NCBI GenBank assembly: GCA_902776945.1
Contig: CACYSH010000010.1
Span: 4,580-40,311, forward strand
Direction of reading: 5' to 3'
DNA length: 35,732 nucleotides
Source of the DNA: an uncultured Ruminococcus sp.
GTDB lineage: Bacteria; Bacillota; Clostridia; Oscillospirales; Ruminococcaceae
This document shows, one piece after another, positions 2,968-25,305 of this stretch; the first letter of the stretch is position 1, and each line of letters begins with the position of its first letter. The notes beneath the pieces are model-generated. The model was not told the DNA's origin, searched no databases, and saw nothing but the letters and a program-made list of their open reading frames with translations. The translations under genes were made by a program, and so were the position numbers.

Positions 2968-3128
2968 GCAAGAAGAGCGGTCTGAACAAGTTCAGACAGG
3001 TGATATTTTGCAAAGAGACTGCGCGAAGGTCGGGAAAAATCACGGCAGACGGGACATTAATTAAATGTGTCAAAAGAAATCAGGCGAGAGAAAAATTAAC
3101 GCCCGATTTTTACAAAGGAGGAGACAAA

Positions 3129-4508
3129 ATGTCGTTAGGAAAAAGTATAGCGGTGACTGTTACCGTTATCGTTGTCGGAGCGGCGGCGTGTTTCGGAGGG
3201 TATAAATTCTTGAAATCGAAGGGCGTTACGCTTTCCACAGGGGTGGTGTACGTCCAGCGCGTGCAGGAGCTTAACACCGTCGCGGGAAAAACGCTCACCG
3301 GCAGCCTTTTTTCGGGAGTGGTAGAAACGCAGAAGACCGAAGACTTCAAATATGATACCTCGAAAAAGGTGAAGGCGGTAAAGGTCAAGGTCGGCGATCA
3401 GGTCAAAAAGGGCGACGTTCTATTTGTATATGATCAGGAGCAGGCACAGCTTGACATAGACGACCAGCAGATAGAGTACGAAAAGGCGGTAAACGAACTT
3501 GAGACCAACAAGTTACAGCTTGCGGAGCTGCAAAAGGAAAAGGCTGCGGCAAGCGCCGACAGACAGACCTCGCTCACCACAACGATACTTTCCAAGCAGA
3601 GCGAGATAGCAAGAGCCGAATATGATATAAAGCAAATGGAATCCAAGATAGAGAAAATGCAGAAGGCTCTTAAAAACAACAAGGTAAAGTCCACCCTCGA
3701 CGGCGTGGTAAAGGAGGTCGCCGATATAAGCGATCTTGAAAACAGCGACGTAAGCGCGATAGTAAAAATATCACGCGGCGATGATTATACGATAAAAGCG
3801 ACGGTAAACGAGCAGATGATCTCGCAGGTGCAGACGGGTATGCCCGTGCTTATCCGCTCCCGTATCGACGATAACGTATGGCATGGCACCGTCACCAACA
3901 TAGAGACAAAGCCCGCGAGCAGCTCTGACAGCGGGGAATTTAGTATAGGCAACGGCGAGGAAATGAGTTCCTCGTCCTCGAAATATTATTTCTATGTGGA
4001 GCCGGAGTCATTCGACGGGCTTATGCTGGGTCAGCATATCATTATCGAGCCTGATATGGGCGGCATGGACGAGATCAAGACGAAGGAAGGCATCTGGCTT
4101 TACAGCGATTTCTTTATCCATGAGGACGGCAAGACTTATGTGTGGGCTGACAACGGCAGCGGCAGGATAGAAAAGCGCGAGGTAACTATCGGCGATACCG
4201 ACCCCGATAACGCCGACTGTCAGGTGACAGACGGTCTTACCAAGAGCGACAGGATAGCTTATCCCTCCGAGCAGTTTGAGCCGGGTCTTAAAACTACCGA
4301 GAACTCTCAGGAGGCGACCGTTCCAAAGATAGAGGGCGCGGACAATGACGCAGGCGGCGAAATGCTCACGCCCGACGGCGGAAATGATGATTTTGATGCT
4401 CAGGGCTTTACTATCGACGATGAAGATGCCGCTTTCGATGATGATGAATTTGCGTTAGATGTGGGCGACGAAGCCTTTGAAGACGATGACGAAGCAGTCA
4501 TCGAGTAA
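3129..4508 (+). CDS. Membrane-fusion (HlyD/MacA/YknX-like) adaptor with acidic C-terminal tail
   Basis: This 459-residue protein is the first gene of an ABC export operon. The start ATG is set by AGGAGG six bases upstream. It has an N-terminal membrane anchor (about residues 8-24), a first lipoyl-like half with the signature VKVGDQVKKGDVLF (86-99), a coiled-coil hairpin (about 103-187), the returning lipoyl half STLDGVVKEV (188-197) and beta-barrel segments (about 205-390). This is the fold of adaptors that partner MacB-type permeases; in Gram-positives (YknX) they sit on the outer face of the membrane. The last ~60 residues are highly acidic, rich in Asp-Asp-Phe and Asp-Asp-Glu clusters, which is not part of the usual family fold. 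It is followed 16 bases later by the ATPase gene. The exported substrate is unknown. Confidence 0.88.
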   Translation: MSLGKSIAVTVTVIVVGAAACFGGYKFLKSKGVTLSTGVVYVQRVQELNTVAGKTLTGSLFSGVVETQKTEDFKYDTSKKVKAVKVKVGDQVKKGDVLFVYDQEQAQLDIDDQQIEYEKAVNELETNKLQLAELQKEKAAASADRQTSLTTTILSKQSEIARAEYDIKQMESKIEKMQKALKNNKVKSTLDGVVKEVADISDLENSDVSAIVKISRGDDYTIKATVNEQMISQVQTGMPVLIRSRIDDNVWHGTVTNIETKPASSSDSGEFSIGNGEEMSSSSSKYYFYVEPESFDGLMLGQHIIIEPDMGGMDEIKTKEGIWLYSDFFIHEDGKTYVWADNGSGRIEKREVTIGDTDPDNADCQVTDGLTKSDRIAYPSEQFEPGLKTTENSQEATVPKIEGADNDAGGEMLTPDGGNDDFDAQGFTIDDEDAAFDDDEFALDVGDEAFEDDDEAVIE

Positions 4509-4524
4509 GTCGGGAGGGTGAACT

Positions 4525-5220
4525 ATGTCGGATATTATATTGCAGCTTAATAATGTGGATAAGTCGTATTTTATTGACAAAATGCCTGTTCCCGTGCTGA
4601 AAAAGGTGAATTTTCAGGTGATGAACGGCGAATATGTGGCGATAATGGGACCCTCCGGCTCGGGAAAATCCACGATGATGAATATAGTCGGCTGCCTTGA
4701 CAAGCAGACGGCGGGAGAATTTATCTTCGACGGCGTGGATATTGCCAAGTGCCGCGACAGACAGCTTTCGATAATCAGAAATGAGAAAATAGGCTTTGTT
4801 TTTCAGAATTTCAACCTTCTGCCGAGACAGTCGGCGCTTGAAAACGTCGAGCTGCCGCTGCTTTACGCGGGAGTGCGCAAAAGCGAACGCCGCCGCCGTG
4901 CAAAGGAGGCTCTCGCAAGAGTGGGGCTTGAGGACAGAATGTACCATAAGCCCACACAGCTTTCGGGCGGTCAGAAGCAGAGAGTGGCTATTGCGCGGGC
5001 TATCGTGAATCACCCGCGTCTGCTGCTTGCCGACGAGCCGACGGGCGCTCTCGATACTAAATCGGGCGAGCAGGTAATGCAGCTTTTCAAGGAGCTTAAC
5101 GAGGAGGGCGTAACGGTTGTAATGATAACCCACGCGCCCGAAATAGCCGAGTGCGCCAAGAGAGTGGTATATATACGCGACGGCGAGCTGTTCAGCGGAG
5201 AGGAGAGGGACAACAGGTGA
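4525..5220 (+). CDS. ABC transporter ATP-binding protein (MacB/LolD/YknY type)
   Basis: This 231-residue nucleotide-binding subunit has Walker A GPSGSGKST (42-50), a Q-loop glutamine at 94, signature LSGGQ (146-150), Walker B LLLADE (166-171) and an H-loop His at 203. The Arg-rich stretch KSERRRRAKEAL and the EPTGALD motif place it in the MacB/LolD subfamily, whose members drive mechanotransmission transporters, moving peptides, toxins or lipoproteins rather than importing nutrients. The start ATG has GGGAGG upstream. The stop overlaps the GTG start of the next gene (GTGA), a sign of translational coupling. Confidence 0.96.
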   Translation: MSDIILQLNNVDKSYFIDKMPVPVLKKVNFQVMNGEYVAIMGPSGSGKSTMMNIVGCLDKQTAGEFIFDGVDIAKCRDRQLSIIRNEKIGFVFQNFNLLPRQSALENVELPLLYAGVRKSERRRRAKEALARVGLEDRMYHKPTQLSGGQKQRVAIARAIVNHPRLLLADEPTGALDTKSGEQVMQLFKELNEEGVTVVMITHAPEIAECAKRVVYIRDGELFSGEERDNR

Positions 5221-7418
5221 AGAGGTTTATAATCACTCTGCTGTGCCTGGCGATCATAGCGGGCGGCAGCTATTACGGATACCTCAGATTCCAGAAAAAT
5301 AAGGACGAAAAGCGCATAGTTGACGTTGTGTCGGTGAGCCTTGTAAATCAGGATTATTTCAGCGAGGAAAAGACTACCGACGCTTGCGTTACATCGGGCA
5401 GCATACAGAACGTTGAACTCAGTACGCAGAAGCTGGTAAAGCAGGTGTATGTACAGCCGGGCGATAAGGTAAGAAAGGGCGATATACTCTTAGCATACGA
5501 TATGACCGTTGTGGAGCTTGAAAACGAAAAGAACAAGAATCAGATAGCGGTCATAGATCAGGAGATAAAGGAGCAGGAGAAGGAGCTTAAACGCTTGCAG
5601 GCGCTCCAGCCGAAGGAGAACGCTCCCAAGACCGATTCAAGCTCGGTCGCGGAGAAGAAGACCACCACCACGCCGAAAACGACCACCACTACGGCTACTA
5701 CCACCACGAAGTATACTATCGCTGCGATGCGAACTACCACCACAAAATTGCTCCAGCCCGTTACTTCGCCGACCACTACCACTACAACGACCACCACTAC
5801 CACCACAACGACCACGCGCAGGACGACGACCAAAAAGCCCGAGCCTGCGGCAGTCTCCGTGAGAAGCTCACTCGACGTTATCGAAAATCCCGACGGCTAT
5901 GAGCTTGACGGCTCGATATACTTCCGCTGCACTTCCTCAACTATGGTCACTGCGAATTTCATGCAGCAGCTTATCGACAGCAGCGAACACGTTATCCTTT
6001 ATGTTTACGACAGCGAGCATAAGCGCATACAGTACCTTTGGGATATTGACCCCATGACGAATACCCAGCTTGAAGCGCTTGACTGGCGTGCTGACAGCGG
6101 GGTCATATCCAATCACGGCTCGTATGCCTACAACGGCTCGGCTGAACTGAAGCAGGGCGTGTTCTATGTGTATGTGGAACCTGAGCAGCCCGATTACGGC
6201 GGCTATGACGATTATGAAGATTATGACGCTTACGATGATTTCGGCGACAGTAACGATGATTTCAGCGGCGAAGAGATAAATATAGGCGGTCTTGACGGCG
6301 ACGACGATTTCGGCGATGAAGACCTTCCCGATATTACCGTAACGACGACAACAACGACCACAGCGACTTCATCGAAGGACACCGAACCGCTCGACGATGT
6401 TATCCCGGACGACGATACCGAGATAGACCTTCCCGGCGACGGAGACAGGGAGATCGACCTTACAGACGATGACAGCATAGGCGATGACAGCGAAATAGAT
6501 ATGGTCGATTCGGGTGCCGATCTTCTTGACGATTCGGGCAGCGATTCCAAGACCGACAAGAAGGACGAGCCGGAGGACGAAAACTATCTCCATACCCGTG
6601 CGGAGCTTGTCGAAATGATAAAGGAAGCGCAGATAGAGCTTAAAGAAAAGCAGCTCGAATACCGCAAGGCGGAGCTTGCTTACAAAGCGGGTCTTAAACA
6701 GAAGGAGGACGGCGTGGTCACGGCGCAGATTGACGGGATAGTTACCCGCGTGGACGAGGAGACCACCACCTACGCGGCGGCATCGGACGAATATGAATTT
6801 GAGGAGGACATGGGTTTAGACGACTTCAGCTTTGAGGAAGGCATCGACGAGGGCGGCTTTGAGGACTTCGAGGGAGATCACCCGTTTATCACGATACAGG
6901 GCAAGGCGACTGTCAGCCTTGACATAAACGTTCCCGAGCTTAGTCTTTCGAAATTCACAGAGGGAACGGTCGTTACGGGCATAGATTACAATTCGGGCGC
7001 GGAATTTACGGCGGTAGTCACGGGCAGAAAGGACGACCCCGTTTCATACCGCAGCTACGGCGACGATAACCCCAACAGCAGCACATACATAGTTACCGCC
7101 GACGTTCAGGACTGTCCGTCGCTTGCGGTGAACCGCTATGTCACGGTAAGGATACCCGGCGAGGGGAATCAGAAGAACCGCAATTCGCTGAATATCCCCG
7201 TAAGCTATCTGAGAAAGGACGGCGCGTCTTATTATGTTATGGTCGCCGATTCGAACGGTCTGCTGAAAAAGCGGTATGTCAAGACGGGCAAGATGTATTA
7301 CGGCTCGGTCATAGAGGTGCTTGGAGGTCTTTCGCTTGACGACATGATATGCTTCCCCTACGGCAAGGACGTAAAGGAAGGCGTAAAGACCCGCGAAACT
7401 GATGAAGTAGTATGGTAA
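5217..7418 (+). CDS. Giant membrane-fusion adaptor with poly-Thr and acidic insert in the coiled-coil hairpin
   Basis: This 733-residue adaptor starts at GTG 5217, overlapping the ATPase stop, with AGGAGAGG upstream. Order of parts: membrane anchor (about 4-23), first lipoyl half with VYVQPGDKVRKGDILLAYD (77-95), first coiled-coil helix (about 98-131), a Thr-rich linker (about 148-205) with 15 consecutive Thr at 186-200, an unrecognised globular segment (about 214-322), an Asp/Glu-rich linker with a second Thr run (about 325-455), the returning helix (about 458-495), the second lipoyl half (499-513) and barrel domains (about 560-733). About 320 residues are thus inserted where an ordinary adaptor has only the hairpin tip. 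A second acidic patch occurs at 525-554. Neighbours show it works with the ATPase and the permease; its relation to the first adaptor (heteromeric ring, or separate roles) is inference. Confidence 0.85.
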   Translation: MKRFIITLLCLAIIAGGSYYGYLRFQKNKDEKRIVDVVSVSLVNQDYFSEEKTTDACVTSGSIQNVELSTQKLVKQVYVQPGDKVRKGDILLAYDMTVVELENEKNKNQIAVIDQEIKEQEKELKRLQALQPKENAPKTDSSSVAEKKTTTTPKTTTTTATTTTKYTIAAMRTTTTKLLQPVTSPTTTTTTTTTTTTTTTRRTTTKKPEPAAVSVRSSLDVIENPDGYELDGSIYFRCTSSTMVTANFMQQLIDSSEHVILYVYDSEHKRIQYLWDIDPMTNTQLEALDWRADSGVISNHGSYAYNGSAELKQGVFYVYVEPEQPDYGGYDDYEDYDAYDDFGDSNDDFSGEEINIGGLDGDDDFGDEDLPDITVTTTTTTTATSSKDTEPLDDVIPDDDTEIDLPGDGDREIDLTDDDSIGDDSEIDMVDSGADLLDDSGSDSKTDKKDEPEDENYLHTRAELVEMIKEAQIELKEKQLEYRKAELAYKAGLKQKEDGVVTAQIDGIVTRVDEETTTYAAASDEYEFEEDMGLDDFSFEEGIDEGGFEDFEGDHPFITIQGKATVSLDINVPELSLSKFTEGTVVTGIDYNSGAEFTAVVTGRKDDPVSYRSYGDDNPNSSTYIVTADVQDCPSLAVNRYVTVRIPGEGNQKNRNSLNIPVSYLRKDGASYYVMVADSNGLLKKRYVKTGKMYYGSVIEVLGGLSLDDMICFPYGKDVKEGVKTRETDEVVW

Positions 7419-7437
7419 GGGGGCGCTGAAACAAGGT

Positions 7438-8700
7438 ATGTTTGAGAATATAAGGCTTTCGTTTCAGGGCATTTTCTCGCACAAGATACGCTCGCTGCTG
7501 ACTATGCTCGGTATCATAATCGGTATCGCGGCGATAATCGCGATAGTTTCGACGATAAAGGGTACCAACGAGCAGATAAAGAACAATCTTATCGGCTCGG
7601 GGAACAACACCGTAAAGATAAAGCTCCAGCAGGGCGATATGGAGGTAGATTTCAACTGGACGGGCGTTCCCGACGGCGTGCCTGTCATCACGGCGGAAGA
7701 AATGCAGCGCCTGAATGAGATACCCGAAGTAGAGGTATGCTCGGCGTTTCGGCTGCATACTTATGTGGACAACATTTTCTACAACGATACGATAATAGAC
7801 GCGCCCTCCGTATACGGCATTGACGAGAACTATTTCGCGACGGCAGGGTATCAGATAAGCAGAGGAAAGGGCTTTTCTCCCGAAGATTACAAGGGCTTTT
7901 CAAAGGTCTGCATAATTGACGAGACTGTGGTAAATTCGTTGTTCGGCTCGGAAGACCCCGTAGGGAAAATGATAGACATTGAGCAGGAGCCTTTCAGGAT
8001 AATAGGCGTTGCCGCCGAGACCAGCGACTTCGAGCCTGTAATAAACTCAATGGACGACTACTATATGCTGATGTATTCACGCGACAACGGCAACAAAATA
8101 TTTATCCCGAGCGAGGCATGGCCCATAATTTTTCGCTACGACGAGCCGCAGAGCGTGATAGCAAGGGCGATAAACACCGACAGCATGACGATAGTAGGCA
8201 AGACCGCCGCCGACCTTATGAACGAATATCTTACGGTAGGCGAGAAGTCCAATATTTCGTACAAGAGCGAAGACCTGTTGAAGCAGGCGCAGCAGATGCA
8301 GAACCTAAGCTCCTCGACGAACAAGATGCTGATATGGATAGCCTCTATCTCGCTGCTGGTCGGCGGTATCGGCGTTATGAACATCATGCTCGTTTCGGTA
8401 ACGGAGCGCACAAGGGAGATAGGGCTTAAAAAGGCGCTCGGAGCGCGGCGGGGCAGGATACTTTTCCAGTTCCTCACGGAAGCGTCGGTGCTTACGAGTA
8501 TCGGCGGTATAATCGGTGTGGGAGCGGGTATCGGCTTGGCGCAGATAGTCTCGAAAATGGCGGAGGTACCGGTAGCCATATCCACGCCTGCTATTGTGGT
8601 CTCGGTTGTGTTCTCAATGGCGGTGGGAATTATTTTCGGGTTCATTCCGTCGGTGAAGGCGGCAAGGCTGAATCCGATAGACGCGCTGAGATACGAGTAA
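7438..8700 (+). CDS. MacB/FtsX-type ABC transporter permease
   Basis: This 420-residue membrane protein is the last gene of the export operon. The topology is classic MacB: an N-terminal helix (about 19-41) after the SHKIRSLLTMLGIIIG motif, a large extracellular domain (about 45-285), then three C-terminal helices (about 297-322, 345-372, 384-405) and the conserved ending KAARLNPIDALRYE. TERTREIGLKKALGA is the typical coupling segment that contacts the ATPase. MacB-type permeases do not form a classical channel but transmit ATP-driven movements to the extracellular face. An AAGGGGG sequence lies 14 bases before the ATG, a longish spacing. A strong terminator follows. Confidence 0.93.
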   Translation: MFENIRLSFQGIFSHKIRSLLTMLGIIIGIAAIIAIVSTIKGTNEQIKNNLIGSGNNTVKIKLQQGDMEVDFNWTGVPDGVPVITAEEMQRLNEIPEVEVCSAFRLHTYVDNIFYNDTIIDAPSVYGIDENYFATAGYQISRGKGFSPEDYKGFSKVCIIDETVVNSLFGSEDPVGKMIDIEQEPFRIIGVAAETSDFEPVINSMDDYYMLMYSRDNGNKIFIPSEAWPIIFRYDEPQSVIARAINTDSMTIVGKTAADLMNEYLTVGEKSNISYKSEDLLKQAQQMQNLSSSTNKMLIWIASISLLVGGIGVMNIMLVSVTERTREIGLKKALGARRGRILFQFLTEASVLTSIGGIIGVGAGIGLAQIVSKMAEVPVAISTPAIVVSVVFSMAVGIIFGFIPSVKAARLNPIDALRYE

Positions 8701-8755
8701 GCTGCGGTGCGGTAAACAAGATATTTACAGTGAATATATATATGGAGAGAAAAAG

Positions 8756-8785
8756 CCGGGGAGCGTAAAGGTTCCCCGGTTTTTT
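8756..8785 (+). terminator. Rho-independent terminator of the export operon
   Basis: CCGGGGA (8756-8762) pairs with TCCCCGG (8773-8779), followed by six T residues (8780-8785). It begins 55 bases after the permease stop codon. Confidence 0.9.
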
Positions 8786-8846
8786 CAAAGCTGCGAAAAA
8801 CGCAAAGTGAAGGCGTATCAAAAGTCTTAGGAAGTTAAAAAATATC

Positions 8847-11596: not shown

Positions 11597-11690
11597 AAAA
11601 TCGGCAAATTCCTTGTTTCCGCTCAATTTTGCAGAGCTATTCAATTATTTGTTTTTGTTGATCTTTCTTGAAATTGCCGATTTTAATTTT
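11597..11690 (-). mobile_element. MITE-like element, copy B (inverted relative to copy A)
   Basis: The reverse complement of this segment matches 2869-2967 through most of its length, including the interior run GAATAGCTCTGCAAAATTGA and both termini. The left terminus is shortened to AAAATCGGCAAATT, while the right terminus AAATTGCCGATTTTAATTT (11671-11689) is intact. It lies in the gene-free stretch 11494-11893. Confidence 0.7.
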
Positions 11691-11741
11691 GGTCGGATTG
11701 GCTTCTTGCTATTTCTCACGAGATTTGAACCGTTCAGTCTC

Positions 11742-24459: not shown

Positions 24460-25305
24460 ATGGGTTTTTTTTCAGGAATAAAGAGCATTTTCGTAGGTGA
24501 CGAGGACATCGAGGAGGAGATCTATTCTACATATAATCCTCCGAAGCCGCCCGCCGTTCCCGAAGAACAGAAGGTGGAAACCAAGCCGGAGCCGCCTGCA
24601 CCGCCCAAGTCGGCGGAGACAGTGGAATATCCCGAAAAGCGGGACGATTCGGCGACTGCAAGGCGAACGCAGAACCAGCAGCGCAGGTCGTCCATACTCG
24701 ATAAGCCTGACAGAGCGTATTCTTCGGACAGATTAGACAGAGACAGATCGGACAGGTCGTATTTGTCTGACAGGTCGGAGCGTTCGGACAGAGCGTATTT
24801 GTCTGACAGATCGGAGCGTTCGGACAGAGCATATTCGTCCGACAGATCGGAGCGTTCGGACAGGTCGTATTCGTCTGACAGATCGGAACGCTCGGAAAGG
24901 TCGTCCTCTGACAGACGCGAGAAAAGAAGCAATTCAGCCTCCGACAGGTATTCCTCCGACAGGAGTTCCGGGAGAGGCAGACATAAGGAAAGAGAGAGTG
25001 ATGTTCGTATGACACCCACAGAACAATCTTCATTTGAGCTTGTTCTTGCAAGACCCAACAATTTCAAAGAGGTATCCAAGATCGGAGAGGATATAAACGA
25101 CGGCAGAACGGTGATAATCAACTTGGAGCTTGTTAAGCAGGAGGACGCTACGAGAATACTTGACTTTATCTGGGGCGTGGCTTTTGCCAACGAGGCGGAG
25201 ATCAAGATGATGGCGCAAAAGACCTACGCTGTTATACCGCCCGGAGTAAACTTCACCGGCGTTGACCTTGTAAGCGAGCTGGAAAATAACGGCTACACCT
25301 TCTGA
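24460..25305 (+). CDS. sepF: Cell division protein SepF with Ser/Arg/Asp-repeat linker
   Basis: A 281-residue SepF, far longer than the usual ~150. Residues 1-12 (MGFFSGIKSIFV) form the amphipathic membrane-binding helix. A Pro/Glu-rich stretch (27-55) is followed by a disordered region (about 60-187). Inside it four 12-residue units at 103-150 follow the pattern SDRSERSDRAYL, flanked by more Ser-Asp-Arg. The SepF core (about 189-278; FKEVSKIGEDINDGRTVIINLE...) is normal. SepF tethers FtsZ filaments to the membrane and shapes the septum through rings. The repeat linker is a balanced polyampholyte with one Tyr in most units. It overlaps ylmH by one base; the small membrane gene ylmG often found between them is absent. 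Confidence 0.95.
   Translation: MGFFSGIKSIFVGDEDIEEEIYSTYNPPKPPAVPEEQKVETKPEPPAPPKSAETVEYPEKRDDSATARRTQNQQRRSSILDKPDRAYSSDRLDRDRSDRSYLSDRSERSDRAYLSDRSERSDRAYSSDRSERSDRSYSSDRSERSERSSSDRREKRSNSASDRYSSDRSSGRGRHKERESDVRMTPTEQSSFELVLARPNNFKEVSKIGEDINDGRTVIINLELVKQEDATRILDFIWGVAFANEAEIKMMAQKTYAVIPPGVNFTGVDLVSELENNGYTF
24766..24909 (+). repeat. 36-bp tandem repeat inside sepF (4 units)
   Basis: Units start at 24766, 24802, 24838 and 24874. The first three are nearly identical at DNA level; the fourth is degenerate. Each is a multiple of three, so copy-number change keeps the frame. The unit begins TCTGACAGRTCGGAGCG. This points to recent duplication, unlike the old synonymous divergence expected of an ancient repeat. 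Confidence 0.9.

Follow-up and report, generated by a model that had tools for sequence, protein, structure and literature searches.

The window analysed here, a 35,732-nucleotide (nt) stretch from an uncultured Ruminococcus sp. (contig CACYSH010000010.1 of assembly GCA_902776945.1, positions 4,580 to 40,311), carries a four-gene operon predicted to encode an exporter whose motor is MacAB-type and which differs from other members of that family by its two adaptors, termed AdA and AdB. On the evidence of sequence comparison, the presence of two jointly inherited adaptors on one pump is a feature of many gut Clostridia. The operon comprises the following genes.

3129–4508, + strand: AdA, small MacA/YknX-type adaptor of 459 residues, ATG start
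4525–5220, + strand: ATP-binding cassette (ABC) ATPase of MacB type, 231 residues (PF00005, NCBIfam)
5217–7418, + strand: AdB, large MacA-type adaptor of 733 residues, GTG start
7438–8700, + strand: MacB-like permease of 420 residues with MacB_PCD and FtsX domains (Pfam)

The adaptor–ATPase–adaptor–permease order and the adaptor sizes (459 and 733 residues) are those given in a preliminary description of this DNA. Coupled starts were also proposed there; this holds for the ATPase–AdB junction, where the AdB start codon overlaps the end of the ATPase gene by 4 nt. Short gaps of 16 nt (AdA–ATPase) and 19 nt (AdB–permease) separate the genes at the remaining junctions, so these genes are better described as closely spaced.

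The ATPase matches PF00005 (E 4e-35, 121.8 bits) in Pfam, and its best NCBIfam match is MacB (NF007826), below the equivalog cut-off of that family. The permease matches PF12704 (E 2e-31, 110.6 bits; cut-off 27) and PF02687 (E 3e-22, 79.2 bits; cut-off 25.5). Both adaptors have only sub-threshold adaptor matches in Pfam, and score 71.5 (AdA) and 58.2 bits (AdB) against TIGR01730 in NCBIfam (cut-off 94.9 bits). Where these scores fall short, profiles built from each adaptor family are decisive: among PDB sequences both match Spr0693 (5xu0) best (AdA, E 2e-28; AdB, E 2e-27), with MacA next, and this indicates that both adaptors are MacA-type. The operon thus has the MacB_PCD and FtsX permease, the MacB/LolD-group ATPase and the MacA-type adaptor domains of MacAB-type (type VII) exporters. 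It does not have the one adaptor per operon of that type; instead there are two, and both are conserved.

Co-occurrence and ancestry of the two adaptors

In 100 related genomes, matches at E 0.001 are more widespread than the two-adaptor set (AdA in 36, AdB in 21). Strong AdA matches (>170 bits) are confined to 15 genomes, which are also those with the strongest AdB matches (at least 54 bits); the weaker matches are ordinary adaptors, among those inspected. The order AdA–ATPase–AdB–permease is found on one contig in 13 of the 15. In the remaining two (G002 and G019) the operon is split at contig ends, and the pieces are consistent with this order.

A wider set of 80 loci consists of the best 80 from a permease scan of an 84,980-species genome collection, ranked by similarity to the permease of the window. 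Division by permease identity gives 55 loci of this type (at least 44%) and 25 ordinary MacB loci (32–42%). One locus, L142, lies on the same contig as a locus from the related genomes (L080, G049:C47), and the two sets therefore overlap by one operon. Both adaptors are present in 44 of the 55 loci; in nine, AdB is present and the contig ends beyond it, L154 is cut, and L143 has neither adaptor. Every locus with AdA in view (44/44) also has AdB adjoining the permease, and in 42 of these 44 the ATPase gene lies between the adaptors. An overlap of exactly 4 nt between the AdB start codon and the ATPase stop codon recurs in 23 of the 54 loci tested. AdB is spread over two frames in L112. At the ATPase–AdB junction of L114 there is a scaffold gap; an apparent natural fusion of the two genes there was rejected, as the frame contains four X residues at this gap. 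Judged by their record titles, the 55 loci come for the most part from Lachnospiraceae, Oscillospiraceae, Ruminococcus, Clostridia and Erysipelotrichaceae, and most are metagenome-assembled genomes. The permease had no match in PLSDB at E 1e-60, and so this search gave no sign of plasmid spread.

In the 25 ordinary MacB loci, one adaptor is found in 23 and two in none (a contig end truncates L184, and no adaptor is seen in L186). Similarly, among 24 comparator loci drawn from the related genomes, a separate MacB-type permease frame is found in 19, in every case beside exactly one adaptor; four (L099, L102, L104 and L106) have no such frame. These counts bear out the one-adaptor norm assumed in the preliminary description for such systems, with the proviso that a second adaptor too diverged for the profiles would escape detection in single-adaptor loci. 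Two comparator loci have unusual arrangements. L106 (G090:C3), at 3942–7202 on the minus strand, has three tandem adaptor-like frames with an ATPase frame nearby, possibly another multi-adaptor system. In L097 (G058:C149), a 741-residue frame at 3–2228, open at the contig start, matches both adaptor and permease profiles and is a possible natural adaptor–permease fusion.

In an even draw of 291 genomes across the class, AdA (E 1e-30) and AdB (E 1e-15) were found in the same two, the genome of the window and G185. As this draw takes few genomes per family, the family of G185 was sampled separately by an even draw of 200 genomes (AdA at E 1e-30, AdB at E 1e-12). AdA was present in 53 of these and AdB in 52 of the 53. 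Coordinates place AdB downstream of AdA, sharing its contig and strand, in 50 genomes and on another contig in two (G402 and G423). In the genome with AdA and no AdB match (G449), AdA stops 492 bases short of the contig end. Four genomes (G438, G468, G500 and G577) have weak matches to the C-terminal part of the AdB profile (50–55 bits) without AdA. With these high family counts set against 2/291 in the class, the system is frequent in certain families and scarce in the class as a whole.

A tree of 91 adaptors, from a quick search with Shimodaira–Hasegawa-like approximate likelihood ratio test (SH-aLRT) support only, places AdB in one clade (27 rows, support 97) and AdA in another (27 rows, support 99, with the row of the two-adaptor locus L178 inside it). 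Together they adjoin three single adaptors, two from Streptococcus loci and one from an Oceanobacillus locus (support 93), apart from the other 33 single adaptors. The branching order among AdA, AdB and these three Bacilli adaptors is left unsettled by the tree. Several sub-clades recur in both the AdA and AdB parts.

Predicted structure and acidic regions of AdA and AdB

Structure models were generated for single chains, from alignments of 57 rows for AdA and 59 for AdB. The AdA alignment keeps 57 of 59 frames (L135 and L142 dropped) and the AdB alignment 59 of 68 (L112, L114, L134, L136, L137, L142, L149, L152 and L165 dropped). Mean predicted local distance difference test (pLDDT) scores are 80.8 for AdA and 74.5 for AdB. 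The AdA model has a helix at residues 4–30 (membrane anchor), a lipoyl domain, a helical hairpin (103–140/143–182), a beta-barrel and a membrane-proximal domain, the names being assigned by homology to MacA. The AdB model has the same parts, with its hairpin helices (97–129 and 461–497) separated by about 330 residues. The regions in which the adaptors depart from a plain MacA-type fold are as follows.

4332–4505, + strand: AdA acidic C-terminal tail, residues 402–459, net charge −25, pLDDT <50
5604–6596, + strand: AdB hairpin-tip insert in the model, residues 130–460, made up of a Thr-rich linker, a tip domain and an acidic linker
5850–6176, + strand: AdB tip domain, residues 212–320, predicted to be mainly beta, with 10-residue blocks at pLDDT 87–98
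6753–6887, + strand: AdB acidic loop, residues 513–557, net charge −19, at the place of the gating loop in the Spr0693 lipoyl domain

That gating loop is described in the excerpted text of PMC5768738. Both linkers of the AdB insert are of low confidence in the model, and one sequence window in AdB is 62% Thr. In Foldseek searches of the PDB, the best match for both models is MacA of MacAB-TolC (5nik; AdA, E 1e-18; AdB, E 1e-11). Template-modelling scores normalized by query length are low, at most 0.41 (AdA) and 0.18 (AdB) among the matches listed, which is attributable to flexible multi-domain chains with disordered parts. Taken with the profile matches, the models indicate that AdA and AdB are both complete MacA-type adaptors. 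The difference between them is conserved, the AdA hairpin being plain whereas that of AdB has a long tip of variable length: between matched points of the hairpin helices there are 14–42 residues in AdA (33–35 in 49 of 57 rows) and 67–456 in all 59 AdB rows.

A barrel glutamate of MacA, E231, is reported in excerpts of PMC8277102 to make ring contacts. In profile alignments, which carry a 30-residue offset between 3fpp and 5nik, it aligns with E228 of AdA and E574 of AdB, and this glutamate is invariant in both families (57/57 AdA and 59/59 AdB rows). A loose lipobox pattern, which would make the adaptor a lipoprotein in some relatives, was found in 10 of 57 AdA and 1 of 59 AdB rows; the AdA matches of the window and L075 are probably false, given a predicted membrane helix at that place or close resemblance.

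A profile made from the tip domain of the window matched 26 of 5257 frames in the collected loci, every one of which is among the 68 AdB frames; none was found in AdA or in the single adaptors of these loci. Against Pfam the domain gave nothing beyond chance, two families being reached by one of 23 members each at E 0.05–0.06, and among PDB sequences it has no relative (best E 0.96). Tandem tip-domain matches occur in the AdB of L116 and L119, one of the two in L119 being weak. In the class draw the domain was found in two of 291 genomes, that of the window and G136. The G136 match is weak and partial (E 2e-5) and lies in a 424-residue secreted, membrane-anchored non-adaptor protein (L188, G136:C17, 793–2067), directly preceded by what we take to be a dockerin-like-repeat protein. 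Its presence in a non-adaptor protein suggests that the tip domain may be a wider extracellular module.

The preliminary description also noted acidic low-complexity sequence rich in Asp-Asp-Phe in both adaptors, as a possible binding site for a cationic substrate. The acidity is borne out. By their best 60-residue window of Asp plus Glu, AdA (42%) and AdB (45%) rank highest among 32 open frames of at least 200 residues, not all of which are genes; the next frame has 37%. The acidic linker of AdB (residues 324–460) has a net charge of −47. Enrichment in the motif was overstated: there is a single Asp-Asp-Phe in AdA and there are four in AdB, and few rows beyond the genus contain it (4 of 47 AdA and 6 of 49 AdB rows). 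Within the genus, the most negative 60-residue window reaches −24 or lower in 9 of 10 AdA and 9 of 10 AdB rows. Beyond it the range is −37 to −10 for AdA and −29 to −7 for AdB, and in 12 single adaptors −23 to −8. Strong acidity is thus most evident in this lineage, with a gradation elsewhere, and is not a hallmark of two-adaptor systems. The lipoyl-domain loop exceeds 20 residues in 13 of 59 AdB rows, those of the window's genus and L107–L109. A cationic substrate is possible; binding through sequence rich in Asp-Asp-Phe is not supported as a general feature by these alignments.

Flanking regions and comparison with known exporters

Two putative expression signals enclose the four genes, next to which lie a GH95 gene and an S1-domain gene.

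2677–2704, + strand: sigma-70-like site TTGACA-16-TATAAT with TG, a possible operon promoter (consensus scan)
8749–8786, + strand: intrinsic terminator, a hairpin followed by a T run (−28.7 kcal/mol, z −6.1 against 200 shuffles)

The first, 425 nt upstream of AdA, is the sole 12/12 consensus match in the window and is a consensus match only; the scan found 10 promoter-like sites in the window (6.8 expected). The strong hairpin after the permease agrees with the single terminator proposed earlier; it was missed by the consensus scan and picked up by a shuffle-based folding test. No RNA element in Rfam was matched anywhere in the window, leader included. A 95-nt element is present in two copies of opposite orientation (2868–2962 and 11597–11691), 88% complementary and 8.6 kb apart, the first copy falling within the leader of AdA, downstream of the promoter-like site. 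Elsewhere in the window, 36-nt tandem repeats (24748–24927) lie within a 281-residue open frame spanning 24460–25305.

When frames of at least 80 residues around the operon were clustered across loci, no family recurred beyond local synteny, and no cluster of 30–79-residue frames within 3 kb was present in more than four of 71 loci. The six largest clusters of small frames read like shadows of syntenic genes. A linked substrate or peptide gene was therefore rejected, as the clusters of flanking frames show local synteny only. The syntenic genes include presumed UvrD-like helicases (seven loci) and presumed ribosomal protein S2 (six loci), and a GH95 gene adjoins the operon in four loci, all from the genus (123–2444 in the window, L067, L070 and L075). 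The lack of a recurrent neighbour beyond synteny favours a general envelope task over dedicated bacteriocin export.

Of the characterized systems, Spr0693-0694-0695 of Streptococcus pneumoniae (SpMacAB) likewise has a MacB-like permease with a separate ATPase, and supplies the best PDB sequence match for both adaptor profiles. It differs in having one adaptor, without a hairpin-tip domain. For the Streptococcus and Oceanobacillus loci whose single adaptors neighbour AdA and AdB in the tree, permease identity to the window is 38% and 42%, values that pertain to those loci and not to the S. pneumoniae permease itself. YknWXYZ of Bacillus is also a Gram-positive MacB-type exporter with a MacA-type adaptor and no outer membrane; it has one adaptor and the four-helix protein YknW (excerpts of PMC4338810 and PMC8277102), whereas the operon in the window has two adaptors and neither YknW nor any other further gene. 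MacAB-TolC shares the adaptor and permease domains, but has a single adaptor, a fused ATPase–permease and a TolC partner. No TolC-family (PF02321) match was found in seven of eight carrier genomes, that of the window included; in the eighth, G185, there are two matches of 28–32 bits inside one 728-residue frame.

Two different adaptors in one operon are also known from TriABC-OpmH of Pseudomonas aeruginosa, where, according to excerpts of PMC4338810 and PMC13328181, both are required and their roles are non-equivalent; they are proposed to share a 3+3 ring on the trimeric transporter (PMC13328181, in part). That system has a resistance–nodulation–division transporter and an outer-membrane channel, in contrast to the ABC ATPase and FtsX permease found here. 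DSY0927 of Desulfitobacterium hafniense is a reported fusion with two different adaptors on one ABC transporter (excerpts of PMC4338810 and PMC4446572); compared by description only, it differs in being a single fused polypeptide. Searches of open-licence PubMed Central papers gave no description of a Gram-positive MacB-type ABC transporter with two adaptors, DSY0927, a fusion, being the closest case mentioned.

Proposed assembly and alternatives

From gene content and order, domains, joint inheritance and asymmetry, all read from the sequences, we infer the ring and transport steps that follow. It is fairly probable that the operon encodes a MacAB-type (mechanotransmission, type VII) envelope exporter with two dedicated adaptors, probably in one mixed ring, with AdB providing arms towards the wall. 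The preliminary description had likewise suggested a mixed ring, or else two substrate-capturing arms, either of which may apply. The motor would combine a pair of ATPases with a pair of permeases, on the pattern of MacB and Spr0694-0695, and AdA and AdB would assemble above the outer domain of the permease, most likely as one mixed ring. ATP-driven movement would then move peptides or amphiphiles from the outer membrane face into the ring, clearing that face, and the AdB tip arms would extend from the far end of the ring, reaching into or holding the wall. It is believed that substrate reaches MacB-type pumps from outside the membrane, and their adaptors form hexamers; three MacA per MacB are non-equivalent, two on one subdomain and one on another (both from excerpts of PMC5985334). 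With this non-equivalence, a twofold permease would fit a 4:2 ring. An alternating 3:3 ring would break the twofold symmetry of the MacB dimer, and by this reasoning alone 4:2 would be the simplest symmetric choice. A narrower proposal is advanced more tentatively, and may well prove wrong: that these gut Clostridia have a family of exporters whose adaptor ring, seated on a twofold MacB-type permease, is obligately heteromeric, and in which a plain adaptor is combined with one bearing a wall-reaching arm with its own tip domain, in a 4:2 or a symmetry-breaking 3:3 arrangement.

The main reading is supported by the conserved gene order, the near-complete co-occurrence of the adaptors, their separate clades, the MacA fold matches, the recurrent 4-nt overlap of AdB with the ATPase, the correlated AdA–AdB distances and the invariant E231-type glutamate. 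Several observations qualify it or weigh against it. L115 and L152 hold both adaptors and the permease without an ATPase gene between them, and the ATPase may be supplied from elsewhere. L143 has a permease of this type (3096–4349) with no adaptor within 3.1 kb upstream, where two frames presumably encode MATE transporters. Pairwise AdA–AdB distances across 51 loci are strongly correlated (r 0.85; other gene pairs 0.73–0.80), and a partial correlation of 0.54 is left once permease and ATPase distances are removed; shared descent of the whole operon explains most of this, which argues for long joint inheritance and not for contact. Conservation of the E231-type glutamate would be compatible with two separate homohexamers too, a shared ring extrapolates from models of single chains, and neither size class of flanking frames (at least 80 residues, 30–79 residues) links a substrate to the locus.

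A plain tether would have no need of the lipoyl, barrel and membrane-proximal parts that AdB keeps, nor of the ring-contact glutamate retained in 59/59 rows. It is on this account rather unlikely that AdA alone makes the ring and that AdB stands beside it, out of the ring, as a wall tether, sensor or scaffold, even though the large insert of AdB, with its small domain and Thr-rich linkers, resembles a reaching arm and the tip domain has its weak relative in the secreted non-adaptor protein of G136. The adaptor YknX has, moreover, been reported to bind peptidoglycan (PMC5985334, in part). Two interchangeable homohexameric adaptors might instead compete for one permease, each with its own exit or substrate range. 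Completeness of both adaptors and retention of the E231-type glutamate in each are compatible with this, and the highly variable AdB tip (67–456 residues) could set a separate function. It is nevertheless unlikely, as the conserved order, tight spacing and near-complete co-occurrence fit joint use better, and exchangeable parts would be expected to show single losses more often. Low AdB scores in Pfam and NCBIfam could suggest an ordinary single-adaptor pump with a misassembled second gene or, as envisaged in the preliminary description, a decayed or unrelated one. This is extremely improbable: AdB forms one clade with its core domains kept, and the co-occurrence search outlined in that description places it alongside AdA in 15 related genomes out of 100 and in all but one of the 53 AdA carriers of the other family. 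Decay or chance pairing is refuted by this co-occurrence, and the pairing of the divergent adaptors persists from one family to another.

Reviews identify the role of MacA-type adaptors in cells that lack an outer membrane as a gap (excerpts of PMC4338810 and PMC5985334). A two-adaptor pump would offer a natural handle on adaptor function in such cells. As the adaptor job appears to be split between a plain protein and a long-armed one, the functions of the ring and of the hairpin tip may be separately removable. The two-adaptor design also poses a question of symmetry for the MacB motor and, if the ring is indeed heteromeric, the adaptor positions on MacB would be genetically separated.

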